Of a DNA stretch of 64,000 bases, positions 37,725 to 60,328 are shown in pieces; within the stretch, counting starts at the first letter, position 1, and each line of letters starts with the position of its first letter. The notes below the pieces were generated by a model. It had not been told where the DNA came from, did not search any database, and worked only from the letters and a program-made list of their open reading frames with translations. Source of the stretch: Oxalobacteraceae bacterium OTU3CAMAD1. Its GTDB lineage: Bacteria; Pseudomonadota; Gammaproteobacteria; Burkholderiales; Burkholderiaceae_D. Position numbers and translations under genes: made by a program. The stretch spans positions 7,130,001 through 7,194,000 of the forward strand of contig CP099650.1 of the NCBI GenBank assembly GCA_024123915.1, in the 5' to 3' direction.

Positions 37725-40448
37725 TTACAACCTTGCCTCCGCCGCCTCCACGCGCGTTTGCACAAGAATCTTCTTGATTTCGGGGACGCAGGAGCCGCAA
37801 TTGCCTCCCGCCTTGAGGCAGGACGTCACCTGCGCGACCGTTTGCAAGTCCTTCTCGATGATGGCGTTGCAGATCGTGTTGCGGCCCACGCCGAAGCACG
37901 AGCACACGGTCGGACCGGTGTCGGCGCCCTTCTCGACCGGCATGCCGACCAGCAGGCCAACGCGGTCGATTTCGCTCAACTGCTCCTTGACGAACAGGCT
38001 GGCCAGCCACGCGCGCGACGGCATGTCCTGGCGCGGCGACAGGAAGATGCACTGTTCGATGCGGTCGTTCACCACGTGCACAGCGCGGTACACGCCGGCG
38101 GTGCGGTCTTCGTATTCGAGCCAGTCGGCGTCCAGATCCTGCACACCCAGCACGCCACGCGCCCACTGGCCGAAATCGGAGATGGTATTGCGGCCGGCCA
38201 GCTCGTAGCGGGCGAATTCGCGGCCCTGGATGCGGGTCCAATGGGCCACGCTGTCCAGATCCACTTCCGTGCGGCTCAGGATGAAACTGTGCCAGTTGAC
38301 GCGGAACTGCTCGATGCGCACCGGCGTGTGTTTGAATTCCGGCTCGCCCGACACCGGATCGACTACCGGGTTGACCAGCGCGCCGACGCGGGCGTCGGAC
38401 GAGGTCTGGCCCGACCAGTGGATCGGAATGAATACCGTGCCGCGCGGGATGCCGCCGCCGTGCTGCACGCGCGCCACCATCGCGCCCCATTCGGAGCTGA
38501 CGCGCGCCAGATCGCCCTCGCGCACGCCGTGCAGCAGCGCGTCCTGCGGGTGGATGTCGACGAACGATTCGGAGATGTGGTCCGCCAAGGTGAAGGACTT
38601 GCCGGTGCGCGTCATCGTATGCCACTGGTCGCGCACGCGGCCGGTGTTGAGCGCCAGCGGGAAGTCCTCGCTGATGGCGTTGGCCGGCGCGCGCGGCACG
38701 GTGACGATGAAACGCGCCTTGCCGTCGGCATGGGCGAAGCGCTTGTCGGCGAAAAGGCGCTCTTCCACCTCCATGCCGCCGTCGGCGCCACGACGCACCG
38801 GCCACTGGACCGGTTCCAGGCCGTCGTACTCGTTCTTGTTCAACTGCGCCAGGCCGGACATGTCGAAGGCGCGCGGCACGTCGGCGGCGCTGTTGCGGAA
38901 GCCGCTCAGGCGCGCGTGTTCGTCGAATACGCTGTTAGCGCCAGCGAAGTCGAAACCGCTGAAGCCCATGCGCTGCGCGAACAGCGCGAGGATCTTCCAG
39001 TCGGCCATCGCTTCACCGGGGGCAGGCAGGAAGGCGCGCTGTCGCGAGATGCGGCGCTCGGAGTTGGTGACCGTGCCCTCCTTCTCGCCCCAGCCCAGCG
39101 CTGGCAGCAGCACGTCGGCGTAGGCGTTGGTGTCGGTGTTCTGCATGATGTCGGTGGCGACCACCAATTCGCACTTTTCCAGCGCGCGCCGCACCTGGTC
39201 GGCGTCCGGCATGCTGACCACGGGATTGGTGGAGATGACCCACACCGCCTTGACCTTGCCATCTTCGATCGCCTTGAACAGGTCGACCGCCTTCAGGCCA
39301 GGCTTGTCGGCCATCGCCGGCGACTCCCAGAAGGTCTGCACGACCTCGCGGTGGTCTGCGCGGTCCAGGTCCATGTGCGCGGCCAGCATGTTGGCCAGGC
39401 CACCCACTTCGCGTCCGCCCATGGCGTTGGGCTGGCCGGTGATAGAGAACGGTCCCATGCCCGGCTGGCCGATGCGGCCGCCGATCAGGTGACAGTTGAT
39501 GATGCTGTTGACCTTATCGGTGCCGGAAGACGACTGGTTCACGCCCATCGAATAGGCGGTGATGGTCTTGTGCGTGGCCGCGAACAGTTCGTAGAACTCC
39601 ATCAGCACCGGCAGCTCGATGCGGCAGATCTTCGCCACGACGGCGGGATCGCTGCAATCGGCGTTGGCGGTGGCGAGCGCCGCGTCGAAACCGTTGGTGT
39701 GGTCGGCTACGAACGTGGGATCGACCGCGCCGATCCGGTTCAAATAACTGAGCAAGCCGTTGAACAGCCAGACGTCGGTGCCCGCCTTCACCGGCAGGTG
39801 CAGGTCGGCCAGCTCGCAGGTCGCCGTGCGGCGCGGATCGATGACGACGATCTTCATCTCCGGCCGGCTTTCCTTGGCCTTCAGGATGCGCTGGAACAGG
39901 ATCGGATGGCACCATGCGGTGTTGGAGCCGACCAGCACCACCATGTCGGCCAGTTCCAGGTCGTCGTAGCACAGCGGCACCAAGTCCTCGCCGAAGGCGC
40001 GCTTGTAGCCGGCCACCGCCGACGACATGCACAGGCGCGAGTTGGTGTCGATGTTGGCGCTGCCGATGTAACCCTTCATCAGCTTATTGGCGACGTAATA
40101 GTCCTCGGTCAGCAGCTGGCCCGATACGTACAAGGCCACGGCGTCCGGGCCATGCTCGTCGATGATGGCGCGCCAGGTGCCGGCGACCTTGTCCAGCGCC
40201 TCGTCCCACGAGACGCGGCGCAAGCCTTCCTCGCCGCGCACCTGCGGGTACAGCAGGCGGCCGTCCAGGCTCACCGTCTCGCCCAGCGCGGAACCCTTGA
40301 CGCACAGGCGCCCCTTGTTCGCCGGGTGCAGCTTGTCGCCGGCGATGGAGACCGTGCCGTCGCCCTTGGGGGTGGCGCTCACACCGCAACCGACGCCGCA
40401 ATATGCGCAGGTGGTGCGGACTGACAGATGGTCTTGGGACAGGTTCAA
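37725..40448 (-). CDS. nasC: Assimilatory nitrate reductase, catalytic subunit
   Basis: A 907-residue cytoplasmic molybdoenzyme of the NasA/NasC/NarB group. The N-terminal [4Fe-4S] cysteines are C14, C17 and C21 (CAYCGVGCG), with a fourth expected in GRLCVKG. The bis-MGD domains follow (YVSGQLLTEDYYVANKLMKG, LVGSNTAWCHPI, TNPVVSMPDAD), then a C-terminal MGD-binding domain. The last 70 residues are a BFD-like [2Fe-2S] domain (VCSCFGVGRNTIC, GGNCGSCVPEI), as in Klebsiella-type NasA. No Tat signal is present, as expected. It reduces nitrate to nitrite with electrons probably from the FAD protein encoded just upstream (24-bp gap). Confidence 0.95.
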   Translation of the reverse strand: MNLSQDHLSVRTTCAYCGVGCGVSATPKGDGTVSIAGDKLHPANKGRLCVKGSALGETVSLDGRLLYPQVRGEEGLRRVSWDEALDKVAGTWRAIIDEHGPDAVALYVSGQLLTEDYYVANKLMKGYIGSANIDTNSRLCMSSAVAGYKRAFGEDLVPLCYDDLELADMVVLVGSNTAWCHPILFQRILKAKESRPEMKIVVIDPRRTATCELADLHLPVKAGTDVWLFNGLLSYLNRIGAVDPTFVADHTNGFDAALATANADCSDPAVVAKICRIELPVLMEFYELFAATHKTITAYSMGVNQSSSGTDKVNSIINCHLIGGRIGQPGMGPFSITGQPNAMGGREVGGLANMLAAHMDLDRADHREVVQTFWESPAMADKPGLKAVDLFKAIEDGKVKAVWVISTNPVVSMPDADQVRRALEKCELVVATDIMQNTDTNAYADVLLPALGWGEKEGTVTNSERRISRQRAFLPAPGEAMADWKILALFAQRMGFSGFDFAGANSVFDEHARLSGFRNSAADVPRAFDMSGLAQLNKNEYDGLEPVQWPVRRGADGGMEVEERLFADKRFAHADGKARFIVTVPRAPANAISEDFPLALNTGRVRDQWHTMTRTGKSFTLADHISESFVDIHPQDALLHGVREGDLARVSSEWGAMVARVQHGGGIPRGTVFIPIHWSGQTSSDARVGALVNPVVDPVSGEPEFKHTPVRIEQFRVNWHSFILSRTEVDLDSVAHWTRIQGREFARYELAGRNTISDFGQWARGVLGVQDLDADWLEYEDRTAGVYRAVHVVNDRIEQCIFLSPRQDMPSRAWLASLFVKEQLSEIDRVGLLVGMPVEKGADTGPTVCSCFGVGRNTICNAIIEKDLQTVAQVTSCLKAGGNCGSCVPEIKKILVQTRVEAAEARL

Positions 40449-40472
40449 AATTCGCTCGCTTAGACTATTGGA

Positions 40473-41711
40473 TCACGCGGCCCTGGCGCTGAGCGCCTCG
40501 CCGAATAACAGGGTTTGCCGGATCGAGGTGATGTCGGTGTTGTTCTGGATCAGGCCAAAATACCACGGGCCGTCCTTGACGTCGCCATAGAGCACGGCGC
40601 CGGTGACGCGGTTGTTCTTCAACACCAGCCGCTTGTAGACGCCGCGCCGCGCATCGCGCAGCACCAGGTCCTCGCTCCCCTCGCCGCCGACAAAATCGCC
40701 GACCGAGTACAAGTCTACACCGGTGACCTTCAGGCGTGTGGGCGAAGTTTGCTGCACGTAGCGGCGCACGCCGGCGCCGGCCAGATGCGCACCGCAGACG
40801 CGGGCCTGGTCCCAGATCGGCGCCACCAGTCCGAAAGTGGCGCTGCGGTGCTGCACGCACTCGCCCACGGCGTAAATGCGTGGATCGTAGGTTTGCAGCG
40901 TGTCGTCGACGATGATGGCGCGATCGCAATGCAAGCCGGCCGCCTTGGCCAGCTCGATGTTCGGCCGCACGCCGGCGGTCATCACCACCAGATCGGCCGG
41001 GATCTCGGTTCCATCCTTGAAGCGCACGGCGGTGGCGCGGTCGGTGCCGACGATTTCGGCGGTCTGCGCGTTCAGCATGAACGTCAGGCCCTTGTCTTCC
41101 AGCGCCTTTTGCAGCAGCTGTGCGGCGGGTTTGTCGAGCTGCTGGTTCATCAGCGCGTCGGTCACGTGGACCACGGTGACGGACATGCCCTGGCGTTGCA
41201 GGCCATTGGCCGCTTCGAGTCCCAGCAGGCCGCCACCGATAACAACAGCGTGCTTGTGGTTGCGCGCCGCCTCCAGCATCGATTCCACATCCTGGATATC
41301 GCGGAAGGCCAGCACGCCCGGCAACTGGTGGCCCGGCACCGGGATGATGAACGGCTTGGAGCCGGTGGCGATCAGCAGGCGGTCGTAGCGTACTTCCAGG
41401 CCGGAGCGGGCGCGCACAATGCGCTTGCGGCGGTCGATATGCTCGACCGGATCGCCCGCGTGCAGCGTGATGCCATGCTGGACGTACCACTCACGCGTGT
41501 TGAGCATGATGTCGTCCATCGTCTTCTCGCCGGCCAGCACCGGCGACAGCAGGATTCGGTTGTAGTTACCATGCGGCTCGGCGCCGAACACGGTGATGTC
41601 GTACATCTCGGGATCGAGCTTGTGCAGCTCCTCGACCGTGCGCATGCCGGCCATGCCGTTGCCGATAACGACCAGCGCAGGCTTCGATTCCACGCGCTCC
41701 GGGGGTTTCAT
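40473..41711 (-). CDS. FAD/NAD(P)-dependent oxidoreductase, probable electron donor to nitrate reductase
   Basis: A 412-residue flavoprotein. FAD motif VIGNGMAGMRTVEEL near the N-terminus, NAD(P) motif VVIGGGLLGLEAANGL in the middle, and AVGECVQHRS for flavin contact. It aligns with the N-terminal part of NirB and with NasB-type reductases but lacks iron-sulfur and sirohaem domains. Between nirD and nasC it most likely passes NAD(P)H electrons to NasC. The ATG at 41711 overlaps the nirD stop (ATGA). A longer frame upstream runs through nirD and has no homology. Confidence 0.88.
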   Translation of the reverse strand: MKPPERVESKPALVVIGNGMAGMRTVEELHKLDPEMYDITVFGAEPHGNYNRILLSPVLAGEKTMDDIMLNTREWYVQHGITLHAGDPVEHIDRRKRIVRARSGLEVRYDRLLIATGSKPFIIPVPGHQLPGVLAFRDIQDVESMLEAARNHKHAVVIGGGLLGLEAANGLQRQGMSVTVVHVTDALMNQQLDKPAAQLLQKALEDKGLTFMLNAQTAEIVGTDRATAVRFKDGTEIPADLVVMTAGVRPNIELAKAAGLHCDRAIIVDDTLQTYDPRIYAVGECVQHRSATFGLVAPIWDQARVCGAHLAGAGVRRYVQQTSPTRLKVTGVDLYSVGDFVGGEGSEDLVLRDARRGVYKRLVLKNNRVTGAVLYGDVKDGPWYFGLIQNNTDITSIRQTLLFGEALSARAA

Positions 41712-42055
41712 AGGCCTACCCAGACTTTGCCGTCGGCCACGCGGGCCGGATAGGTGCCGACCGAATTGGCCGGCGCCTCCAGGCATTCGCCGGTTTGCAG
41801 GTCGAAGTGCTGCTTGTAGATCGGCGAGGCGACCACGATGCGCTCGCCCAGGCTGCCCACCAGGCCGCGCGACAGCACGGCGGCTTCCGAATTCGGATCG
41901 TAGTTATCGATGGCGAACACGCGCGGACCGCCGTCGTTGACGTGGAAGACCGCGATCTGCGCGTTGTTCAGCAGTGCGCACACGCCGGTGTTGGGCACGA
42001 TGTCGTCCAGGTTGCAGACGGCGATCCAGTTATCAGTTTGAATATCGCGATGCAT
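41708..42055 (-). CDS. nirD: Nitrite reductase (NAD(P)H) small subunit
   Basis: A 115-residue Rieske-like protein starting MHRDIQTDNWIAVCNLDDI, with the NirD-type fold (RVFAIDNYDPNSEAAVLSRG, PIYKQHFDLQTGECLE). The Rieske Cys/His ligands are missing, which is normal for bacterial NirD. It supports NirB in the six-electron reduction of nitrite to ammonium. It follows nirB by 11 bp and overlaps the next gene by 4 bp. Confidence 0.93.
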   Translation of the reverse strand: MHRDIQTDNWIAVCNLDDIVPNTGVCALLNNAQIAVFHVNDGGPRVFAIDNYDPNSEAAVLSRGLVGSLGERIVVASPIYKQHFDLQTGECLEAPANSVGTYPARVADGKVWVGL

Positions 42056-42066
42056 TTGTATTCTCC

Positions 42067-44598
42067 TTAAGCTGCGCTGACGGCGATCGGAATCACGCGT
42101 TTGCGTTCTTCCACGGTGGCGGGACGAATCTGGCCGCGTTCTTCCATGAAGACGACGTTGTCGTCGCCTTTCTCGCTGTTGACGAAGGTGCGGAAGCGTT
42201 TGCGGGTTTCCGGATTCTCTACGGCTTCTTTCCACTCGCACGCGTAGGTGTTGACGACATGCTGCATGTCGGCTTCCAGGTCGGCGGCGATGCCCAGCTT
42301 GTCCTGCACGACGACCTGCTTCAGGTAATCGAGGCCGCCTTCCAGGTTCTCGCGCCAGGTGCTGGTGCGCTGCAGGCGATCGCCGGTGCGGGTGTAGAAC
42401 ATCAGGAAGCGGTCGATGTACTGGACCAGCGTGGCCTTGTCCAGGTCCGTCGCCAGCAGCTCGGCGTGGCGTGGCTTCATGCCGCCGTTGCCGCAAACGT
42501 AGAGGTTCCAGCCCTTTTCGGTGGCGATGATGCCCACGTCCTTGCCCTGCGCTTCGGCGCACTCGCGGGTGCAGCCGGAGACGCCGAACTTGATCTTGTG
42601 CGGCGTGCGCAGGCCCTTGTAGCGGTTTTCCAGCTCGATGGCCAGGCCGATCGAATCGTCGACGCCATAACGGCACCAGGTCGAACCGACGCAGGATTTG
42701 ACCGTGCGCAGCGACTTGCCGTAGGCGTGGCCGGATTCGAAACCGGCGGCGATCAGCTCTTCCCAGATCAACGGCAGCTGCTCGACGCGGGCGCCGAACA
42801 AATCGACGCGGGCGCCGCCGGTGATCTTGGTGTACAGCTGGTACTTCTTGGCGACCATGCCGACCGCGATCAGGCCATCGGCCGTCACTTCGCCGCCCGG
42901 CATGCGCGGCACGACCGAGTAGGTGCCGTCCTTCTGGATGTTACCGAGGAAGTAATCGTTGGTGTCCTGCAGGCTGGCGTGTTCCTTCTTCAGCACGAAG
43001 TCGTTCCACACCGAGGCCAGGATGCTGGCGGCCAGCGGTTTGCACACGTCGCAACCGAGACCCTTGCCGTGCTTGTGCAGCAGATCGTCGAAGGACTTGA
43101 TCTGGCCCACTTTAATCAGGTGGAACATCTCCTGGCGCGAGTAGGCGAAGTGTTCGCACACGTGGTTGTTGACGGCCATGCCGAGCTTTTTCATCTCGGC
43201 CTTCATCACCTGCGTCACCAGCGGTACGCAGCCGCCGCACGAGGTGCCGGCGTTGGTGCAGCTTTTCAGATCGCCGATGGTGCAGGCGCCGGCGGCAACC
43301 GCCGCGCACAGCGCGCCCTTGGAGACGTCGTTGCACGAGCAGATTTGCGCGCTCTCCGGCAAAGCGTCCACGCCCAGGCCAGGCTTGGCGGCGCCGTCCG
43401 ATTGCGGCAGGATCAGGAACTCCGGCGATTCCGGCAGTTCGATTTTGTTCAACATCATCTGCAGCAGCGTGCCGTATTCGGCAGCGTCGCCGACCATGAC
43501 GGCGCCTTGCAGGTATTTGCCGCAGTCGGAGACGACGATCTTCTTGTAGATCTGTTTGCGCTCGTCGGTGAACTGGTACGAGCGGCTGCCGGCGACGCTG
43601 CCATGCGGGTCGCCGATACTGGCCACGTCCACGCCCATCAATTTCAGCTTGGTGCTCATGTCGGCGCCGGCGAATTCGCCCACTTCGCCCAGCATGTGCT
43701 TGGCCGCGACGCGCGCCATTTCGTAGCCCGGCGCCACCAGGCCGAAGATCAAGCCGCCCCACAGCGCGCATTCGCCGATGGCGTAGACGTCCGGGTTAGA
43801 GGTGACGCAGTTGTTGTTGATCTCGATGCCGCCGCGCGGACCGACGGTCAGGCCGCATTCGCGCGCCAGCATGTCGCGCGGACGGATACCGGCCGAGAAG
43901 ACGATCATGTCGGCGTCCAGGTGGCCGCCGTCGGCGAACTCCATGCGGTGGGTGCCGTCGATGCCGTCGACGATGGCGGTGGTGTTTTTGCCGGTATGGA
44001 CGGTCACGCCCAAGTCTTCGATTTTACGGCGCAGAACGCGCGCGCCGCCATCGTCCACCTGCACCGCCATCAGGCGCGGCGAGAATTCGACGACGTGGGT
44101 TTCCAGTTTCAGGTCGCGCAGCGCCTTGGCGCATTCGAGGCCCAGCAGGCCGCCGCCGATGACGACGCCGGTCTTGGAGCGCTGGCCGCACTCCATCATC
44201 GCTTCCAGATCCTCGATGGTGCGGTAGACGAAGCAATCCTTGCGCTCCTTGCCCGGCAGCGGTGGTACGAACGGATAGGAACCGGTGGCCATCACCAGCT
44301 TGTCGTACGGGAGCACGTCGCCGTCGCCGGTGGTGACGGTCTTGGCGGCGGTGTCGATGGCGGTGGCGCGGGTGTTCAGGCGCAACACCATGTCGTCCCG
44401 TTCGAAGAAGCCGGGCTTCACCAGCGACAGGTCTTCCGCCGTTTTACCGGAGAAGAATTCCGACAGGTGCACGCGATCGTAGGCGGGACGCACTTCCTCG
44501 CACAGCACCGTCACCTGCAGGTTGGTCTTGCCGCTGGCGGCCAGGCTTTCCAGGAATTTGTGGCCGACCATGCCGTGGCCGATAACGATGATTTTCAT
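42067..44598 (-). CDS. nirB: Nitrite reductase (NAD(P)H) large subunit
   Basis: An 843-residue cytoplasmic enzyme. N-terminal FAD and NAD(P) domains (VIGHGMVGHKFLESL, VVIGGGLLGLECAKAL) are followed by a BFD-like [2Fe-2S] domain (CSCNDVSKGALC, CGGCVPLV), the sulfite/nitrite reductase ferredoxin-like half, and the sirohaem/[4Fe-4S] domain with CTRECAEAQGKD and YVCGNGG. It reduces nitrite to ammonium. MKIIVIGHG is the natural start; the frame upstream overlaps narK and is spurious. It starts 17 bp after narK and belongs to its transcript. Confidence 0.96.
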   Translation of the reverse strand: MKIIVIGHGMVGHKFLESLAASGKTNLQVTVLCEEVRPAYDRVHLSEFFSGKTAEDLSLVKPGFFERDDMVLRLNTRATAIDTAAKTVTTGDGDVLPYDKLVMATGSYPFVPPLPGKERKDCFVYRTIEDLEAMMECGQRSKTGVVIGGGLLGLECAKALRDLKLETHVVEFSPRLMAVQVDDGGARVLRRKIEDLGVTVHTGKNTTAIVDGIDGTHRMEFADGGHLDADMIVFSAGIRPRDMLARECGLTVGPRGGIEINNNCVTSNPDVYAIGECALWGGLIFGLVAPGYEMARVAAKHMLGEVGEFAGADMSTKLKLMGVDVASIGDPHGSVAGSRSYQFTDERKQIYKKIVVSDCGKYLQGAVMVGDAAEYGTLLQMMLNKIELPESPEFLILPQSDGAAKPGLGVDALPESAQICSCNDVSKGALCAAVAAGACTIGDLKSCTNAGTSCGGCVPLVTQVMKAEMKKLGMAVNNHVCEHFAYSRQEMFHLIKVGQIKSFDDLLHKHGKGLGCDVCKPLAASILASVWNDFVLKKEHASLQDTNDYFLGNIQKDGTYSVVPRMPGGEVTADGLIAVGMVAKKYQLYTKITGGARVDLFGARVEQLPLIWEELIAAGFESGHAYGKSLRTVKSCVGSTWCRYGVDDSIGLAIELENRYKGLRTPHKIKFGVSGCTRECAEAQGKDVGIIATEKGWNLYVCGNGGMKPRHAELLATDLDKATLVQYIDRFLMFYTRTGDRLQRTSTWRENLEGGLDYLKQVVVQDKLGIAADLEADMQHVVNTYACEWKEAVENPETRKRFRTFVNSEKGDDNVVFMEERGQIRPATVEERKRVIPIAVSAA

Positions 44599-44615: not shown

Positions 44616-45920
44616 TTAAGCTGCCAGTTTGTTGGCGATTGCGGATTCTTCGATGGCTGCGCTGCTGAAGCGTGCTGCCAGTGCGCACAGCGCGGTCGCG
44701 GCGACGACGATGCCCAGGATGCTCAGCGTCTGCTGCGTGTCGCCCAGGCCCTTCATCAGGAAGCCCGCGGCCACCGCGCCGACGTTGCCGCCGGCGCCGA
44801 TGATGCCGGCCACGCCGCCCAGGGCGCGCTTGTCGACGAAGGGCACCACGGCGTAGGTCGCGCCGCAAGCCATGTGGGTGAACAGGCCGAAGATCAGCAT
44901 CGCGCCGATCGCCAGGGCGGCGGTGCCGGCGTGGGCGAACATCAGCAGGCCGGCGCCTTCGCCCAGCATCAGCACGAACAGCAAGGTGACGCGGTTATTC
45001 AGGTTGCCCTTGGCGGCGAATTTGTCCGAGGCCCAGCCGCCCAGTGCGCGGGCGAACAGCGCCAGCAAACCGAAACTGCCGGCGGCCATGCCGGCCTGGC
45101 CCAGGGTCAGTTTGAAGTGGTCGACGTAGTAGATCGCGGCGATGTTGTGGATGAAGATCTCGATGCCGAAGCAGGCGCCGTAGGTGATGAACAGCAGCCA
45201 TACCCGGTAGTTGGCGGCGGCCAGCTTGAAGCTCTCCCAGCCACCCTTCTTGCCGCCTTCGATCGGGATGCCGGCGGCGCGCAGCTCGCTGTAGTTACCT
45301 TGCGGGCAATCCTGGGTGTAGCGATAGTAGACGCCGGCCATGATGATCATCAGGATGCCCGGCACGATCAACGCTGCGCGCCAGCCGAAGGTCTCGGAGA
45401 CGCCCAGCATGACCATCGCCGTCATCAGCAGCGGCATGACAGCCTGCGCGACGCCGCCGCCGGCGTTGCCCCAGCCTGCGGCGGCCGCGTTGGCGGTGCC
45501 GACCACTTTAGGGCCGAACATCACCGAGGTGTGGTATTGCGTGATGACGAAGCTGGCGCCGGCCGCGCCGATCCCGAGGCGGAAGAACAGGAAGCTCTCG
45601 TAGCTCTGGGCGAAGGCCACGCCGATCACCGGGATGGAACCGAGCAGCAGCAGGCCGGTATAGGCCTTGCGCGGGCCGAAGTGGTCGCACAGCGGGCCGA
45701 CGATCAGGCGCACCAGGATCGTGATGGCGACGGCGGCGATGTTGATGTTGGCGATCTGGGCGACGCTCAGACCGAATTCGCCTTTAATCACCGGCATCAG
45801 CGGCGCGCAGGCGAACCACGCGAAGAAGCAGACGAAGAACGCCATCCAGGTCAGGTGGAACGCCCGCATTTGCGGCGTTGAGATCGAGAAGAGCTTGATG
45901 CTGGTAGCTTTGCTGGCCAT
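44616..45920 (-). CDS. narK: Nitrate/nitrite MFS transporter
   Basis: A 434-residue major facilitator with twelve predicted membrane helices. It carries the nitrate-signature type regions GWGNAGGGVAQAVMPLL and GAGGNVGAVAAGF, and ends with a long final helix. It is the NarK/NasA type for nitrate uptake or nitrate/nitrite exchange. MASKATSIKLFS is taken as the start; a GTG 15 codons upstream would translate part of the terminator stem, so I reject it. It is the first gene of narK-nirB-nirD-FAD protein-nasC. Expression should depend on the sigma-54 promoter and antitermination leader just upstream. Confidence 0.93.
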   Translation of the reverse strand: MASKATSIKLFSISTPQMRAFHLTWMAFFVCFFAWFACAPLMPVIKGEFGLSVAQIANINIAAVAITILVRLIVGPLCDHFGPRKAYTGLLLLGSIPVIGVAFAQSYESFLFFRLGIGAAGASFVITQYHTSVMFGPKVVGTANAAAAGWGNAGGGVAQAVMPLLMTAMVMLGVSETFGWRAALIVPGILMIIMAGVYYRYTQDCPQGNYSELRAAGIPIEGGKKGGWESFKLAAANYRVWLLFITYGACFGIEIFIHNIAAIYYVDHFKLTLGQAGMAAGSFGLLALFARALGGWASDKFAAKGNLNNRVTLLFVLMLGEGAGLLMFAHAGTAALAIGAMLIFGLFTHMACGATYAVVPFVDKRALGGVAGIIGAGGNVGAVAAGFLMKGLGDTQQTLSILGIVVAATALCALAARFSSAAIEESAIANKLAA

Positions 45921-46060
45921 TTTTTTATCCCGGTTCAGAAAACAAAAAGGCGTCCGCGCAACCAAGGTGATAGAAACCAGGTCGGGCGGACGCCGTTGTC
46001 CTGCCGGTCCGTCTTTGGACCAGCTGTGTGTATTTGGGGGGGATCGCCGTTGATCCCCTG
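45921..46060 (-). promoter_or_regulatory. ANTAR-type antitermination leader of narK
   Basis: A 140-nt untranslated leader from the predicted +1 to the ATG. Three hairpins have six-base loops with A at position 1 and G at position 4: GGGGATC-AACGGC-GATCCCC (46058-46039), CTGGTCC-AAAGAC-GGACCGG (46023-46004) and GGAC-AACGGC-GTCC (46001-45988). The 3' arm of the last hairpin lies inside the 5' arm of the terminator, so the two cannot form together. Known ANTAR targets have two such hairpins. Binding of NasT would favour read-through into narK. Confidence 0.85.
45944..45994 (-). terminator. Conditional terminator in the narK leader
   Basis: GGCGTCCGC (45994-45986) pairs perfectly with GCGGACGCC (45957-45949) and is followed by five T. 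The stem loop encloses 28 nt. It ends 23 nt before the narK ATG, so without antitermination the transcript should stop before the gene. Confidence 0.85.
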
Positions 46061-46070
46061 CTCCTTCTAA

Positions 46071-46086
46071 TGCAAGAGGCGTGCCA
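46071..46086 (-). promoter_or_regulatory. Sigma-54 promoter of the narK operon
   Basis: TGGCAC-GCCTC-TTGCA on the minus strand, a full match to the -24/-12 consensus. It puts +1 near 46060, two bases before the first leader hairpin. RpoN promoters need an activator such as NtrC, so this links the operon to nitrogen limitation. Confidence 0.88.
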
Positions 46087-46184
46087 ATGGTCTGGAGAGG
46101 GGCGCTACAGAGGGAGAATGCGGGTTTGAGGTCTCAGTAAAGAAATTACAAGCTTATCGTGGTGCGATGTTGCGGTGCATGATG

Positions 46185-46201
46185 CACGCTCGCGGTGCGC
46201 G
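46185..46201. promoter_or_regulatory. Candidate NtrC-type activator site
   Basis: TGCAC-N7-GTGCG has the same half-sites and spacing as enteric NtrC sites (GCAC-N7-GTGC). It lies about 100 bp upstream of the sigma-54 promoter, where activators normally bind. The surrounding GC-rich sequence repeats GGTGC several times, so extra weak sites are possible. Confidence 0.5.
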
Positions 46202-46319: not shown

Positions 46320-46991
46320 CTAACCGGCGGCGGCCAAGGCGGCGGCCACCATCTCGTCGATTTCGCCGCTGATGCTGGACAGGACGCCCGCCACCACCGA
46401 GAACTCCTTGCCGGCCGCGCCGGCGCGCGCGGCGACGATGCGCGCGTTGAAGGCGACCATCCGCGCCTGGCGGTTGATCGTCTCTATATCCGTGATCACG
46501 CCGCGCAGCTGCTTGCGCACCAGGCGCGCGTTCCGCTTGGCCTGCTCCTCGTAGATGCCGGTGATCTGGTTCAGTATTCCCAACGTTGGCGTTGTGATAC
46601 GCACCAGCTCCGCCAGCAGTTCGGCCGCCTGCCCCGAACCGCGCGCGATCGCGTTCAGCGTGCGCTCGCCAAGATCGGCGAAGGCGACGATCTGGCGGTC
46701 GCCGTCCATCTTGCCGTGGTAGGCTTCGCGCAGCTCCGGGCAGAACACGCCCGGCAGGCCGTCCGCCTCGCTCAGGAGCGACTTGTGGGCGCCCCGGAAC
46801 AGCGCCAGCGCCTCCTGCGCCGTCGCCGCGCCCTCTTGGTGCCCCTGCGACGCCAGCAGCGCGTACAGCACGATGCGCTGCGACGTGAAGCGGCGTCGCC
46901 CCGACAGGTTGATCAAGGCGCTGAATACTTCACCGGTCAACGCCTTGTTGGCGGCGCCGGCCGGCGCCAGGGCGCCCGTGGACATGTCCAT
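46320..46991 (-). CDS. Soluble NarX/PilJ-type sensor-domain protein in the nrt operon
   Basis: A 223-residue protein with no signal peptide or membrane helix. Residues 27-39 (INLSGRRRFTSQR) match the nitrate-binding P-box of NarX/NarQ and PilJ-type sensor domains (pattern INxxGxxRxxSxR); Arg34 and Arg39 align with the two NarX P-box arginines. The C-terminal part (NARIVAARAGAAGKEFSVVAGVLSSI) resembles half of a chemoreceptor signalling helix. Its ATG overlaps the stop of the transporter ATPase gene (TAATG), so it is coupled to nrtABD. I infer a cytoplasmic nitrate sensor that may act on NasT, because no NasS is present. It could instead be a chemotaxis-type protein. Confidence 0.72.
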   Translation of the reverse strand: MDMSTGALAPAGAANKALTGEVFSALINLSGRRRFTSQRIVLYALLASQGHQEGAATAQEALALFRGAHKSLLSEADGLPGVFCPELREAYHGKMDGDRQIVAFADLGERTLNAIARGSGQAAELLAELVRITTPTLGILNQITGIYEEQAKRNARLVRKQLRGVITDIETINRQARMVAFNARIVAARAGAAGKEFSVVAGVLSSISGEIDEMVAAALAAAG

Positions 46992-47797
46992 TACGCGGCT
47001 TCCTTCGCGGGATGCGCCTGTTTTCGGTACAAGAACTCCAGTACAGCCGTGCGGTACTCGGTGTAGCGCGCGTCCTGCGCCAGCGCCACGCGGTCGCGCG
47101 GACGCTCCAGCTGCACGTCGACGATCTCGCCGATGGTGGCGGCCGGGCCGTTGGTCATCATGACGATCCGGTCCGACAGCAGCACCGCCTCGTCGACATC
47201 GTGCGTGACCATCACCACGGTGGACTTGGTGGCGGCGACGATCTTGAGCAGCTCGTCCTGCAGGTGGGCGCGGGTCAGCGCGTCGAGGGCGCCGAACGGT
47301 TCGTCCATCAGCAGCACTTTCGGCTCCATCGCCAGCGCCCGGGCGATGCCGACGCGCTGCTTCATGCCGCCCGAGATCTCGTGCGGACGCTTGGTTTCGG
47401 CGGCCGTCAGGCCCACCAGCGCCAGCGCCTGCATGGTGCGCTCGCGCAGCTGCGCCTTCGATTCGGTCTTGCCGAACACCCGTTCGACACCCAGGTGGAT
47501 GTTTTCATAACAGGTCAGCCATGGCAGCAGCGAGTGGTTCTGGAACACCACCGAGCGCTCCGGCGACGGTCCGGCGATCTCGCGGTTGGCGCACAGCAGA
47601 ACCCCGTCGGTCGGCTTGAGCAGCCCGGCGATCAGGTTGAGCAGGGTCGATTTGCCGCAGCCCGAGTGACCGATCAGGGTGATGAATTCGCCCTTGCGCA
47701 CCGTCAGATCGATTTCACGCAGCGCGTGGAACACACCTTTTTTGGTGTGGAAGACCATCTCCACGCCTTCGACATCGATGAATTTTGGATCGTCCAT
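46991..47797 (-). CDS. nrtD: Nitrate ABC transporter ATP-binding protein
   Basis: A 268-residue ABC ATPase. Walker [18 protein letters not shown]-loop [11 protein letters not shown], signature [18 protein letters not shown], Walker [13 protein letters not shown], switch His MVTHDVDEA. This is the NrtD/SsuB-like group, without the extra C-terminal binding domain of cyanobacterial NrtC. It lies 11 bp after nrtB. The start [16 protein letters not shown] is preferred over a longer open frame that overlaps nrtB. Its TAA overlaps the ATG of the sensor-like gene. Confidence 0.92.
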
Positions 47798-47808
47798 GAC
47801 AGTGCTCC

Positions 47809-48705
47809 TTAGTTGGATACTTGTTCGTAGGTGAAGGCGCGGGCCAGCGCCATCAGGGCCTGCTCCAGCAGCAGACCGACAAAGCCGATCGCCACGATCG
47901 CGATGATGATGTGCGGGACATTCAGGTTGTTCCACTCGTCCCATACCCAGAAGCCGATGCCCACGCCGCCGGTCAGCATTTCCGCCGCGACGATGACCAG
48001 CCACGCGGTGCCGATCGACAGGCGCACGCCGGTCAGGATGTAGGGCAGCGCCGATGGCAGCAGGATCTTGGTGAGCACCTTCCACTCCGACAGATTGAGC
48101 ACGCGCGCCACGTTCATATAATCCTGCGGCACGCGCTGCACGCCGACGGCGGTGTTGATGATCATCGGCCAGATCGAGCAGATGAAGATCGACCAGATCG
48201 CGGCCGGATTGGCCGACTGGAACACCAGCAGGCCGATAGGCAGCCAGGCCAGCGGCGACACCGGCTTGAGCAAACTGATAATTGGGCTGAACATATTGCC
48301 GATGAACTGCACGCGGCCGATCAGGAATCCCAGCGGGATACCGACCATGGCGGCCAGGCCGAAGCCGATCGCCACCCGCTGCAGGGACGCCAGCAGGTTC
48401 CAGCCGATGCCCTGGTCGTTCATGCTGTTGCGGTAGAACGGATCGGAGAACAACTTGATCGCCTCCTGCAAGGTCACCAAAGGTGTCGGGAAGGAGGTGT
48501 TCTTAACGGTGATGATCTGCCACACCAGCACCAACAGCGCGGCGCCCAGCAACGGGGCGACGATCTTCAGGGCGGTGGCGGAGACCTGCTTGCGCGCCCG
48601 CGCCGTCGAATTGGCGGCGAGCGGACGGCGTGGACGGCGGGCCGGTTTGGTGTCGAGTTCCGCAGCTATCGGGGCGGCGCTATCGGGTTTGAGCATGGCG
48701 TTCAT
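47809..48705 (-). CDS. nrtB: Nitrate ABC transporter permease
   Basis: A 298-residue permease with about six membrane segments after a 40-residue basic cytoplasmic extension ([19 protein letters not shown]). The EAA-like loop is [27 protein letters not shown]. It matches NrtB/NasE. It lies 28 bp after nrtA and forms the channel of the nitrate importer. Confidence 0.92.
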
Positions 48706-48733
48706 GGCGTTCCTCTATCTGGCTAGGGAAGAA

Positions 48734-50029
48734 TCAGGCTTTGATCTTGAACGAGGCGGCGAACGCTTTCGGGTCTTTGCCGTCCCACACCGAACCGTCC
48801 ATCAGCTTCGATGTACGCAGCGGGCTTTTCGGAATCGGCGTCTTGGTCATCGTCGCCGCGTCCTTGTACAAATCGATCTGGTTGACCGAGGTGGCCACGG
48901 CCAGGTAGTTCGGATCTTCCTTCAGCAGGCCCCAGCGGCGGTGCTGCGTCATGAACCACATGCCGTCCGACAGGAACGGATAGTTCACCAGGCCGTCGTT
49001 ATAGAACTTCATGTGATTCTGGTCGTCCCAGGTCTTGCCCAGGCCATTCTGGTAGCGGCCCATGATGCGCTGGTCGATCGCGTCCTTGCTGGTGTTGACA
49101 TAGGATTTGTCGGCGATGACCTCGGCCATCTTGTTCTTGTTGGCCAGCGAAGCGTCGATCCATTTGCTCGCCTCCAGGATGGCGGCCATCATCGCGCGGC
49201 AGGTGTTCGGGTTCTTCTTGGCGAATTCCAGCGTCGAGCCAAGCACCTTCTCCGGGTGGTCCTTCCAGATGTCCTGGGTGGTGGTGGCGGTGATGCCGAT
49301 GCCGTCCATGATGGCGCGGTGGCCCCACGGCTCGCCCACGCAGAAGCCGTCCATGTTACCGACGCGCATATTGGCCACCATCTGCGGCGGCGGCACGGTA
49401 ATGACCTTAGCGTCCTTCATCGGGTTGATGCCGTTGGCGGCCAGCCAGTAGTACAGCCACATGGCGTGGGTGCCGGTCGGGAAGGTCTGGGCGAAGGTGT
49501 ACTCGCGCTTTTCGGAGTTCATCAGCTTTGCCAGCGAAGCGCCATCGACGGCGCCCTTGTCGGCCAACTTCTTCGACAGCGTGATCGCTTGGCCGTTGTT
49601 ATTGAGGCCCATGAGCACCGCCATGTCCTTCTTCTGGCCGCCGATGCCCATCTGGACACCGTACAGCAGGCCATACAGCACATGGGCCGCATCGAGGTCG
49701 CCGTTGGCCAGCTTGTCGCGCACACCGGCCCACGAAGCCTCTTTACTGAGCACGAATTTTACGCCGTACTTCTTGTCGAAGCCCAGCACCGAGGCCATGA
49801 CCACCGACGCGCAATCGGTCAGTGGAATAAAGCCGATCTTGATTTCTTCCTTTTCCGGCTTGTCCGAACCCGCCGCCCACACGCCACCCGTCGATAAACC
49901 CAACATACTTCCTCCGGCTACTAAACCCGCACCATGAATCACTTTTTGAATTGCCGCTCTGCGCGAAACATTAACGTCGCTGGCGGCTGGTGGCAAGGTG
50001 GAATCTGCTGGTAGCTTCTTATCGTTCAT
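48734..50029 (-). CDS. nrtA: Nitrate ABC transporter substrate-binding protein (Tat-exported)
   Basis: A 431-residue NrtA/CmpA-type binding protein. It starts with a twin-arginine signal (SRRAAIQKVIHGAGLVAGGS), so it is folded and exported; that sets it apart from the cytoplasmic regulator NasS of the same family. The binding domain includes KIGFIPLTDCASVVMA, NNNGQAITLS, FPTGTHAMWLYYWL and NMDGFCVGEPWGHRA. MNDKKLPADST is the start; the upstream frame would run through the leader terminator. It is the first gene of nrtA-nrtB-nrtD-sensor and is controlled by its own sigma-54 promoter and ANTAR leader. Confidence 0.93.
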   Translation of the reverse strand: MNDKKLPADSTLPPAASDVNVSRRAAIQKVIHGAGLVAGGSMLGLSTGGVWAAGSDKPEKEEIKIGFIPLTDCASVVMASVLGFDKKYGVKFVLSKEASWAGVRDKLANGDLDAAHVLYGLLYGVQMGIGGQKKDMAVLMGLNNNGQAITLSKKLADKGAVDGASLAKLMNSEKREYTFAQTFPTGTHAMWLYYWLAANGINPMKDAKVITVPPPQMVANMRVGNMDGFCVGEPWGHRAIMDGIGITATTTQDIWKDHPEKVLGSTLEFAKKNPNTCRAMMAAILEASKWIDASLANKNKMAEVIADKSYVNTSKDAIDQRIMGRYQNGLGKTWDDQNHMKFYNDGLVNYPFLSDGMWFMTQHRRWGLLKEDPNYLAVATSVNQIDLYKDAATMTKTPIPKSPLRTSKLMDGSVWDGKDPKAFAASFKIKA

Positions 50030-50170
50030 GACTATCCCTCTGTAGACAGTAAAACCGTTCGGACAAAAAAAACGCCTACCCCGCATGAACGCATTCATGT
50101 TCGGTAGACGTCGTTGTCTGGTGTGCCCCACCGCCGTTGGCAGGGCTCATCGGCGCATCATTGCGCTTGC
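50030..50170 (-). promoter_or_regulatory. ANTAR-type antitermination leader of nrtA
   Basis: A 141-nt leader, almost the same length as that of narK. Three hairpins with A1/G4 six-base loops: GCGC-AATGAT-GCGC (50166-50153), GCCCTGCC-AACGGC-GGTGGGGC (50146-50125, two G-U pairs) and AGAC-AACGAC-GTCT (50119-50106). The last one shares bases with the terminator 5' arm. Apart from the loops the sequence differs from the narK leader, so the structure seems to be kept by selection and not by recent copying. Confidence 0.85.
50065..50110 (-). terminator. Conditional terminator in the nrtA leader
   Basis: CGTCTACC (50110-50103) pairs with GGTAGGCG (50080-50073, one G-U pair). An inner stem CATGAA/TTCATG extends it, and eight T follow. 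It ends 35 nt before the nrtA ATG and overlaps the last ANTAR hairpin. Confidence 0.88.
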
Positions 50171-50180
50171 CTACAGGCTA

Positions 50181-50196
50181 TGCAATGTCCGTGCCA
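50181..50196 (-). promoter_or_regulatory. Sigma-54 promoter of the nrtA operon
   Basis: TGGCAC-GGACA-TTGCA on the minus strand, full match to the RpoN consensus. It predicts +1 near 50170, four bases before the first leader hairpin, the same arrangement as at narK. Confidence 0.88.
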
Positions 50197-50338: not shown

Positions 50339-50968
50339 TCAGCCGAGCAAATCCTCGACGTCGAGGATGCGCTGGGCGACCTCCGAGAGCTTGAGGTTCT
50401 TGCTCATCGCCATACCGCGCAGCTTTTGGTAGGCCTGCTCCTCGGTGAAGCGCTGGCGCTCCATCAGCAAGCCCTTGGCGCGTTCGATGACCTTGCGCTC
50501 GGCCAGCTTGCTCTTGGTGTCGGACAGCTCGTCGAGCAGCTTCTGCTCGCGTTTAAAGCGCGCCAACGCCACCTGCAGCACCGGTTTGATGCGCTCGCCC
50601 TGCAGGCCGGCCACGATATAGGCCGACACGCCGGCCGCCATCGCCGCCTCCATGCTCTCGGTGTCCTCGCTCTCGGTGAACATGACGATGGGGCGGCGCT
50701 CGTCGCGCGTGGCGATGACGATGTGTTCGAGGACGTCGCGCGCGTCCGACTCGGCGTCGACGATGATCATATCGGGCTGCAGCTGGGCGATCCGCTCGGG
50801 CAGGTACATGTCCGGCGGCAGCGAGGCGACGATGTCGTAGCCCGCTTCCAGCAGGCCGATACGCAGCACCCTGGCCCGTTCGACCTGGGCGCGCAACGAC
50901 TCATCATCCTCGTCGCCGGCGTGGATGATGGCGTTGACAACCACGATACGTAAATTACGCATGGTCAT
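50339..50968 (-). CDS. nasT: NasT-type ANTAR response regulator (transcription antiterminator)
   Basis: A 209-residue protein. The N-terminal half is receiver-like (LRIVVVNAI..., DMIIVDAESDARD, VMFTESEDTESMEAAMAAGVSAYIV) with a divergent acidic pocket. The C-terminal ANTAR domain (about 145-200: KLAERKVIERAKGLLMERQRFTEEQAY) binds hairpin pairs in nascent RNA. NasT antiterminates nitrate assimilation transcripts and is usually held by NasS without nitrate. Here it sits just upstream of nrtA, and both leaders in this window carry its RNA targets. Start is ATG 50968 or the ATG two codons later. NasS is not in the window. Confidence 0.92.
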   Translation of the reverse strand: MTMRNLRIVVVNAIIHAGDEDDESLRAQVERARVLRIGLLEAGYDIVASLPPDMYLPERIAQLQPDMIIVDAESDARDVLEHIVIATRDERRPIVMFTESEDTESMEAAMAAGVSAYIVAGLQGERIKPVLQVALARFKREQKLLDELSDTKSKLAERKVIERAKGLLMERQRFTEEQAYQKLRGMAMSKNLKLSEVAQRILDVEDLLG

Positions 50969-60061: not shown

Positions 60062-60328
60062 ATGGCGCTGCCCATTGTTCGTTTGGGGGACATGACTTCT
60101 CATGGTGGCACCGTTATCACCGCATCGCCGACTCACAGTATCGGAGGCATTGGCATCGCACGCATGGGTGACAACATTGCGTGCCCGCTGCCTGGACATG
60201 GCGTAAATGTTATTGTCGAGGGTGCGACGACTTATCTCGTTGGCGGACGAATGGTCGCTTTGCACGGTCACAAGTGCGCTTGCGGATGTACGCTTATCTC
60301 CAGCCTCGCTTCGGCAACGCACGGTTAG
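60062..60328 (+). CDS. PAAR-domain spike tip protein
   Basis: An 88-residue protein with typical PAAR content: IVRLGDMTSHGGTVITASPT, ARMGDNIACPLPGHG, VNVIVEGATTYLVGGRMVALHGHKCACGC. The repeated His/Cys residues bind zinc at the cone tip. Such proteins sharpen the VgrG spike. It stands free, not fused to the effector, and lies 44 bp after the putative immunity gene. The spacing and order vgrG-effector-immunity-PAAR suggest one transferable unit. Confidence 0.88.
   Translation: MALPIVRLGDMTSHGGTVITASPTHSIGGIGIARMGDNIACPLPGHGVNVIVEGATTYLVGGRMVALHGHKCACGCTLISSLASATHG

Follow-up and report, generated by a model that had tools for sequence, protein, structure and literature searches.

Upstream of narK, a nitrate/nitrite transporter gene of the major facilitator superfamily (MFS) in Oxalobacteraceae bacterium OTU3CAMAD1, we found a predicted leader RNA of 140 nt that follows a sigma-54 promoter, carries three hairpins whose hexaloops have A at position 1 and G at position 4 (A1/G4), and ends in an intrinsic terminator overlapping the last hairpin. 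Its sequence supports assignment of the leader to the ANTAR type, and we consider it likely that the leader as a whole is controlled by NasT. ANTAR leaders are a known kind; the available texts describe leaders with two hairpins and gave us no account of three, so that within this literature, which left aside the subscription papers on Azotobacter and Klebsiella, the three-hairpin layout is new. It is also widespread and not unique to narK: a preliminary description had reported it for this locus, and we found it throughout the family and again before nrtA in the same window (the whole 64-kb stretch of DNA analysed).

The leader lies in a nitrate-assimilation region whose genes, all on the minus strand, follow in the order nasT, nrtA, nrtB, nrtD, a PilJ/MCP-like gene, narK, nirB, nirD, a NirB-like FAD gene and a nitrate reductase-like gene. 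The nasT product (50339..50968), encoded 4.4 kb upstream of narK, is response-regulator-like with an ANTAR domain (PF03861, 75.3 bits, above the cut-off; PF00072, 21.9 bits, below the cut-off of 30.2). The nrt run (46991..50029) consists of nrtA (48734-50029; PF13379), nrtB (47809-48705) and nrtD (46991-47812), the last two assigned by TIGR01183 and TIGR01184, and the PilJ/MCP-like gene (46320-46991; PF13675), whose product has 223 aa, comes last in it. narK (44616..45920; TIGR00886, 292.7 bits, short of the 311.7 set as curated cut-off) is the first gene behind the leader, with its ATG at 45920. The block downstream (37725..44580) holds nirB (about 42067-44580) and nirD (about 41708-42070), names presumed from the gene sequences themselves rather than from a family search, followed by the genes for the NirB-like FAD protein (40473-41786) and an assimilatory nitrate reductase-like protein (37725-40448).

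The promoter, TGGCACGCCTCTTGCA (46071..46086, minus strand), matches the -24/-12 pattern TGGCAC-N5-TTGCA exactly, as the preliminary description had it; the pattern occurs twice in the window where 0.07 copies are expected, the second copy being upstream of nrtA. From the spacing typical of sigma-54 promoters, the transcription start is predicted at about 46060 and hairpin 1 (H1) would begin about 2 nt later, which agrees with the earlier placement. On the minus strand, H1 (46039..46058) is a stem of 7 bp, GGGGATC[AACGGC]GATCCCC; hairpin 2 (H2; 46003..46024) has 8 bp including one G-U pair, GCTGGTCC[AAAGAC]GGACCGGC; and hairpin 3 (H3; 45988..46001), the antitermination hairpin, has 4 bp, GGAC[AACGGC]GTCC. 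All three loops are closed by a C-G pair. The terminator stem GGCGTCCGC...GCGGACGCC (45949..45994, minus strand; sequence and fold) consists of nine perfect pairs followed by a T-run (T5, 45948-45944). The preliminary description had noted this stem, the T-run and the sharing of the 3′ arm of H3; we found that the 5′ arm of the terminator takes in the last three loop bases of H3 as well. With all pairs formed, the linkers are 14 nt (H1-H2) and 1 nt (H2-H3), and the loops of H2 and H3 are 19 nt apart, a distance at which H2 and H3 look like the usual pair and H1 like the extra one.

The leader with its three hexaloops held up against dinucleotide shuffling. Counting non-overlapping A1/G4 hairpins with at least four Watson-Crick pairs in 5,000 shuffles of the 135-nt leader stretch, we obtained three hairpins in 0, two in 4, one in 270 and none in 4,726. 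Folding of lengthening transcripts, a check suggested at the outset, gave H1, H2 and H3 in turn until the 3′ arm of the terminator emerged, and the full-length fold of the RNA alone then favoured the terminator by about 15 kcal/mol (-64.9 versus -49.8 kcal/mol with H3 forced). Under the definition of Ramesh 2012, an ANTAR target has at least two A1/G4 hexaloop hairpins, and this leader has three; its last hairpin is mutually exclusive with the terminator, as judged by the fold energies and by all 48 family leaders described below, and the genome encodes an ANTAR protein, NasT, linked to the target. The 5–12-nt linker range of the eut leaders accommodates neither linker here. Other scans stayed at chance level: an NtrC-like GCACN7GTGC at 46184-46198 belongs to a pattern found 3 times in the window with 3.5 expected, and scans for sigma-70-type promoters (2 found, 1.7 expected) and simple terminators (5 found, 5.3 expected) performed no better than shuffles, the latter passing over the narK-leader terminator, presumably because its loop exceeds 8 bases.

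The second perfect sigma-54 promoter (50181..50196, minus strand; exact pattern) precedes nrtA and is followed on the same strand by three hairpins (50106..50166), GCGC[AATGAT]GCGC, GCCCTGCC[AACGGC]GGTGGGGC and AGAC[AACGAC]GTCT, and by a terminator (50072..50111; sequence and fold) that overlaps the third of them and whose T-run extends to about 50065. A covariance model built from three-hairpin narK leaders (R1), applied to the whole genome with 150 of 3,394 first-look candidates scored, returned the narK leader at 79.7 bits and the nrtA leader at 27.9 bits (E 0.003) as the only two clear leaders. A wider regulon was not accepted, as the third match was weak (18.9 bits, E 0.46). Twelve sites in the genome fit the sigma-54 pattern; the narK and nrtA sites have such hairpins in the next 150 nt and the other ten do not.

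To the family level, a NarK protein search (with a query carrying two residues before the start codon; the NrtA query carried four or so) gave matches in 51 of 145 genomes, and the DNA upstream of all 51 was examined. A full leader, comprising sigma-54 site, leader and overlapping terminator, was present in 48. The search for leaders asked for a GG/GC promoter with a GACA..G motif behind it, which partly builds in the promoter core and the A1 and G4 of loop 3; the positions of loops 1 and 2 were decided by stem score, with A1/G4 playing no part. A1, A2 and G4 were present in loop 1 of all 47 leaders that have H1 and in loop 2 of 48/48 counted leaders, across 10 genera, as they were, partly by construction since the search motif contains A1 and G4, in loop 3 of 48/48. 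Position 5 is A in 40/48 slot-2 loops versus G in 48/48 slot-3 loops, the loop-closing pair is invariably C-G in slots 1 and 3 and either C-G or U-G in slot 2, and the two closing pairs of stem 1 never vary in narK leaders whereas stem 2 drifts. At least 9 of 11 sigma-54 consensus positions were kept in the 48 leaders, and 10 or 11 in 46 (GG and GC being required by the search); a terminator-like arm overlapping H3 and a T-run were found in every one. The first loop starts 33–36 nt after the first promoter base in 46 of the 47 leaders and 44 nt after it in the other (sought between 28 and 46). Gaps range from 9 to 35 nt (median 15) between H1 and H2 and from 1 to 12 nt (median 4) between H2 and H3, with loop-to-loop distances of 30–54 and 19–27 nt, respectively; the 5–12-nt linker range takes in 7/47 H1-H2 and 21/48 H2-H3 linkers.

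Under strict stems of at least 4 pairs, all three hairpins were retained in 43/48 leaders, and four genomes that fail the rule at stem 2 (G106, G133, G130 and G094) still keep the loop. Loss of the A1/G4 loops in close relatives had been named as evidence that would tell against the proposal; the loops are kept in the other seven same-genus genomes with a NarK match, except that G067, one of this genus, has H2 and H3 only while retaining narK and nasT, and was left out of the slot-1 counts. Outside the counts stands G091 (L028), whose leader ends at the contig end: by eye, its H2 stem is kept around a GTCGTT loop, a natural loop-2 variant, and loop 3 reads ATCGGC. Two genomes, G074 and G008, have no leader before narK by the GG/GC-promoter and GACA..G rule. 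G003 (L077) appears to be a decaying locus, in which H1 and H2 are intact and H3, the terminator and the narK start are apparently missing.

Covariation was assessed on an alignment of 43 of the 48 leaders (G067 and G112 (L026) omitted, three identical sequences merged). The proposed partners pair in 94.9% of cells, compared with 89.6% in shuffles; 54 cells carry changes on both sides compared with 15.7 in shuffles (0 of 500 as high; 5–11 with slid partners), and 7 pairs show two-sided change compared with 4.4 (a value reached by 6 of 500 shuffles), figures that are not probabilities because the leaders are related by descent. RNAalifold, given the alignment alone, recovered the same three hairpins with 15 of 17 pairs. 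The fourth pair from the loop in stem 2 takes three forms, G-C (five genera), A-U (five) and C-G (one), and the fourth pair of stem 1 is A-U in three genera; H3 varies too little for a covariation test. The shuffles and the covariation rule out chance hairpins.

We also scanned public genomes beyond the family with a DNA pattern that fixes the promoter and H3, which yielded at least 120 stretches, 80 of them named loci; 70 of these have a terminator and were counted as leaders, and ten without one were left out. With a proximal helper hairpin defined as one whose loop starts 15–36 nt before that of loop 3, the 70 named leaders listed divide into 22 with a proximal helper only, 20 with a distal helper only, 20 with both (three of them doubtful) and 8 with none, so that 42/70 have one recruitment hairpin. 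L157 is probably not a leader, and the second loops of L133, L182 and L201 are doubtful. Grouped by genus name, the matches listed divide as follows. Both helpers occur in 7/7 Oxalobacteraceae-type narK leaders (six by genus and one metagenome-assembled genome labelled Burkholderiaceae), and the seven Oxalobacteraceae nrtA leaders divide into 4 with the proximal helper only and 3 with both (one doubtful). Among the matches listed from Burkholderia, Paraburkholderia, Caballeronia, Ralstonia and Cupriavidus, 11/12 have the distal helper only, several with a hairpin of another loop kind in between, and Cupriavidus has both. The 21 Comamonadaceae-type or unplaced Burkholderiales leaders listed comprise 9 with the proximal helper only, 7 with both (one doubtful), 1 with the distal helper only and 4 with none; Kosakonia and Buttiauxella have the proximal helper only, as do three of the four Pseudomonas loci listed, the fourth having none.

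The R1 model matched 61 of 300 genomes of the order at 62 places. Of the 24 places examined, one of them in the same family, 12 have three A1/G4 hairpins before a terminator, including L296 with a poor promoter, 7 have two, and 5 lack a sigma-54 site accompanied by at least two hexaloops. This sample leans towards three hairpins, because the model derives from leaders of that kind and the places examined are among the best-scoring. In Luteimonas, a gammaproteobacterium, one locus (L153) has three A1/G4 hairpins after a sigma-54 site, and the tested nitrate genes gave no match within 1.6 kb of it.

The genome encodes two ANTAR proteins, NasT and a second at 6784246-6784404. NasT matches PDB chains 6wsh (best), 1s8n, 4akk and 1qo0, which we take to be EutV, Rv1626, NasR and AmiR; its domain make-up and these relatives correspond to the NasT part of a NasS-NasT system, and no NCBIfam model for NasT came up for the product. 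NasT-like proteins are encoded in 87/145 family genomes (E 1e-40). Six genomes of genus g27 have no NasT match at this threshold; each carries an ANTAR gene whose open frame spans 421–470 codons, with NIT and ANTAR domains, NasR-like, in the two tested (G059 and G026). These six keep the three-hairpin leader, which thus persists alongside either type of protein. In G074, where narK has no leader, an ANTAR protein includes a PilJ domain. A separate NasS was not found in the genome, where NrtA, whose start reads like a twin-arginine signal, is the only NrtA/NasS-like protein at E up to 0.001; in several relatives (for example, G133 and G067) an NrtA-like gene lies between nasT and narK. The PilJ/MCP-like protein, present in 29/145 family genomes (E 1e-10) and having a short MCP-like stretch below the Pfam cut-off, may be a nitrate sensor. 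As a sensor partner of NasT it is a weakened candidate: NasT genomes such as G040 gave no match to it (E 1e-10), it is present in genomes of g27, a genus with a NasR-like protein shown in two genomes, and BLASTP aligned it only marginally (E 0.014) with the PilJ-bearing ANTAR protein of G074.

We think it probable that these elements form a NasT-responsive leader with a sigma-54 start, in which H1 and H2 serve as two serial recruitment sites and H3 as the obligatory antitermination hairpin. In this scheme, sigma-54 RNA polymerase, presumably activated by NtrC under nitrogen limitation, would start about 12 nt past the -12 element, so that H1 would be the first hairpin out of the polymerase. 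By default, RNA synthesis would stop at the terminator. Nitrate would free NasT, which would be recruited to H1 and H2 as both emerge and would then pass to, or bridge onto, H3, stabilizing it against the terminator; with the 5′ arm of the terminator held, the polymerase would read into narK-nirBD-nasA. H1 and H2 would thus provide two recruitment sites where the textbook leader has one.

Several published observations (cited here by PMC number) bear on this scheme. ANTAR proteins require a pair of A1/G4 hairpins, of which the second overlaps the terminator (PMC3369931); for EutV, recruitment to one hairpin may be followed by a shift to the next (PMC8934654). NasR binds two hairpins about ten times more tightly than one (about 1 versus 12 µM), and a C-G loop-closing pair emerged from NasR SELEX (PMC7496416). 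In Paracoccus, NasT binds the nasA leader RNA and an oligomeric NasT form has been reported; the available text of the same paper mentions 'a series of regulatory hairpins' before nasA and gives no details (PMC3795266). The preliminary description had placed the leader under NasT control, and the ANTAR-type leader and the NasT-like gene 4.4 kb upstream agree with this, whereas in Bradyrhizobium the narK-bjgb-flp genes, with predicted NasT-recognizable hairpins before narK, were upregulated in a nasT mutant under denitrifying conditions (PMC6759348). This rise, and the finding that mutation of hairpin II in the Paracoccus nasA leader had little effect where mutation of hairpin I was severe (PMC5424462), argue against carrying the model over directly. 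The role earlier proposed for the additional hairpin, a second binding option, is plausible: it fits the existence of leaders with the proximal, the distal or both positions occupied, but neither linker lies in the eut range, and in the eut leaders, where linkers are 5–12 nt, linkers of 3 and 14 nt impaired eutP (PMC3369931). A survey of actinobacteria accepts wider linkers of 2–25 nt (PMC8164766). Against the scheme with serial recruitment through H1 and H2 stand both off-rule linkers, the absence of H1 from G067, the GTCGTT loop 2 of G091, the many leaders with one helper and the failure to find a separate NasS in this genome.

It is possible, although on the unlikely side, that H2 and H3 are the sole working NasT pair and that H1 is mainly a 5′-end stem, shielding the RNA from decay or aiding promoter escape, with an incidental loop. 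H1 sits at the very 5′ end of the leader and G067 does without it; the loop spacing between H2 and H3 (19 nt here, 19–27 in the family) comes close to what two-hairpin leaders show, namely 24 nt in eutP by the loop numbering in PMC3369931 and 25–30 nt in Kosakonia, Buttiauxella and Pseudomonas, and H1 lies 30–54 nt from H2; and in the nrtA leaders of some relatives the first stem is kept while, by eye, its loop drifts. A plain stabilizing stem would not, however, need A1, A2 and G4 in 47/47 narK loops and two invariant closing pairs, and among the matches listed the distal hairpin is the only A1/G4 partner of H3 found in 11/12 Burkholderia-type leaders. That last group points to the converse arrangement, which we regard as unlikely, in which H1 and H3 form the pair and H2 is a folded spacer joining them that gained its ANTAR loop secondarily in this family: in Burkholderia, Paraburkholderia, Caballeronia and Ralstonia the ANTAR loops of the leaders fall in slots 1 and 3, which in several of them flank a hairpin of another kind, H1 and H3 share the loop AACGGC here, and loop 2 of G091, in the leader that ends at the contig end, is of a non-ANTAR kind. 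Yet loop 2 holds A1, A2 and G4 in 48/48 counted leaders despite its drifting stem, G067 has H2 and H3 only, and the proximal hairpin occurs alone in 9/21 Comamonadaceae-type leaders and in Kosakonia and Buttiauxella among the matches listed.

A division of the three loops between two ANTAR proteins, with one pair for NasT and another for the product of the second gene (6784246-6784404), seems highly improbable. The genome does have two such genes, and slot-2 and slot-3 loops differ at position 5, but a search of 15 relatives found just one ANTAR match in each of 9, and 7 of these 9 (G026, G032, G059, G082, G101, G116 and G142) have three hairpins, the other two (G008 and G074) being without a leader. 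A doubtful but more far-reaching reading treats the leader as a three-site loading track, on which NasT, as an oligomer larger than a dimer or as successive dimers, would fill H1, H2 and H3 in the order of their synthesis and make read-through respond more steeply to NasT than it does in two-hairpin leaders, the Burkholderiales having moved the helper hairpin between two slots to leave it distal, proximal or in both. If this were true, the short-linker rule of eut would fail for NasT, and the protein would travel along the RNA or bridge it. Leaders that precede genes of the same kind but have the helper close, far or in both positions offer natural variants able to separate the two printed models: an ANTAR dimer that holds the two hairpins together (PMC7496416), or recruitment of a dimer to the first hairpin and its later movement to the second (PMC8934654). 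The value of the present set lies in this series, in which helper hairpins occur naturally in proximal, distal and double form and so provide a test of protein loading.

Two Rfam families resemble the narK leader. The consensus of narK RNA (RF03032) opens with a sigma-54-promoter-like stretch and has AACGGC and AAAGAC loops; it scores 31.9 bits against our leader, below its gathering score of 43.2, and its model pairs one hairpin and has a last stretch resembling the last hairpin, with H2 of our leader falling in an insert. P11 (RF00625), filed as a Pseudomonas sRNA gene, scores 24.7 bits over 46098-45949, far short of the 70 bits required for gathering, and this stretch includes the promoter, GGACAAAGGCGUCC and the terminator; a literature search for a link between P11 and nitrate listed nothing useful. 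The consensus of each family can be read as a sigma-54 promoter with an ANTAR hairpin, which suggests that narK RNA and P11 may be promoter-plus-ANTAR leaders; recognizing them as such would help annotation.

Among studied systems, nasF is under sigma-54 control, and the Kosakonia (L178) and Buttiauxella (L177) loci are presumably relatives of the studied Klebsiella case; we know of no sigma-54 promoter for the Enterococcus eut leaders. The Klebsiella nasF/NasR type differs from our leader in having one recruitment hairpin, roughly 20 nt past the predicted start in Kosakonia L178, and in using NasR rather than NasT. This two-hairpin leader likewise has A1/G4 hexaloops, a last hairpin over the terminator and nitrate-assimilation genes behind it (PMC7496416; L177, L178). 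Enterococcus eut/EutV shares the dual-hexaloop logic, NasT being a relative of PDB 6wsh, and differs by its two hairpins, 5–12-nt linkers and two-component phosphorylation (PMC3369931, PMC8934654). The Paracoccus nasA leader likewise combines NasT, nitrate assimilation and leader hairpins; there, two hairpins were mutated in the work available, and NasS is present, unlike in our genome, where it was not found (PMC5424462, PMC3795266).

Elsewhere in the window, on the plus strand at 60163-60233, a match to the Pseudomonas sRNA P10 (RF01668) scored 40.3 bits, above the gathering score of 37.
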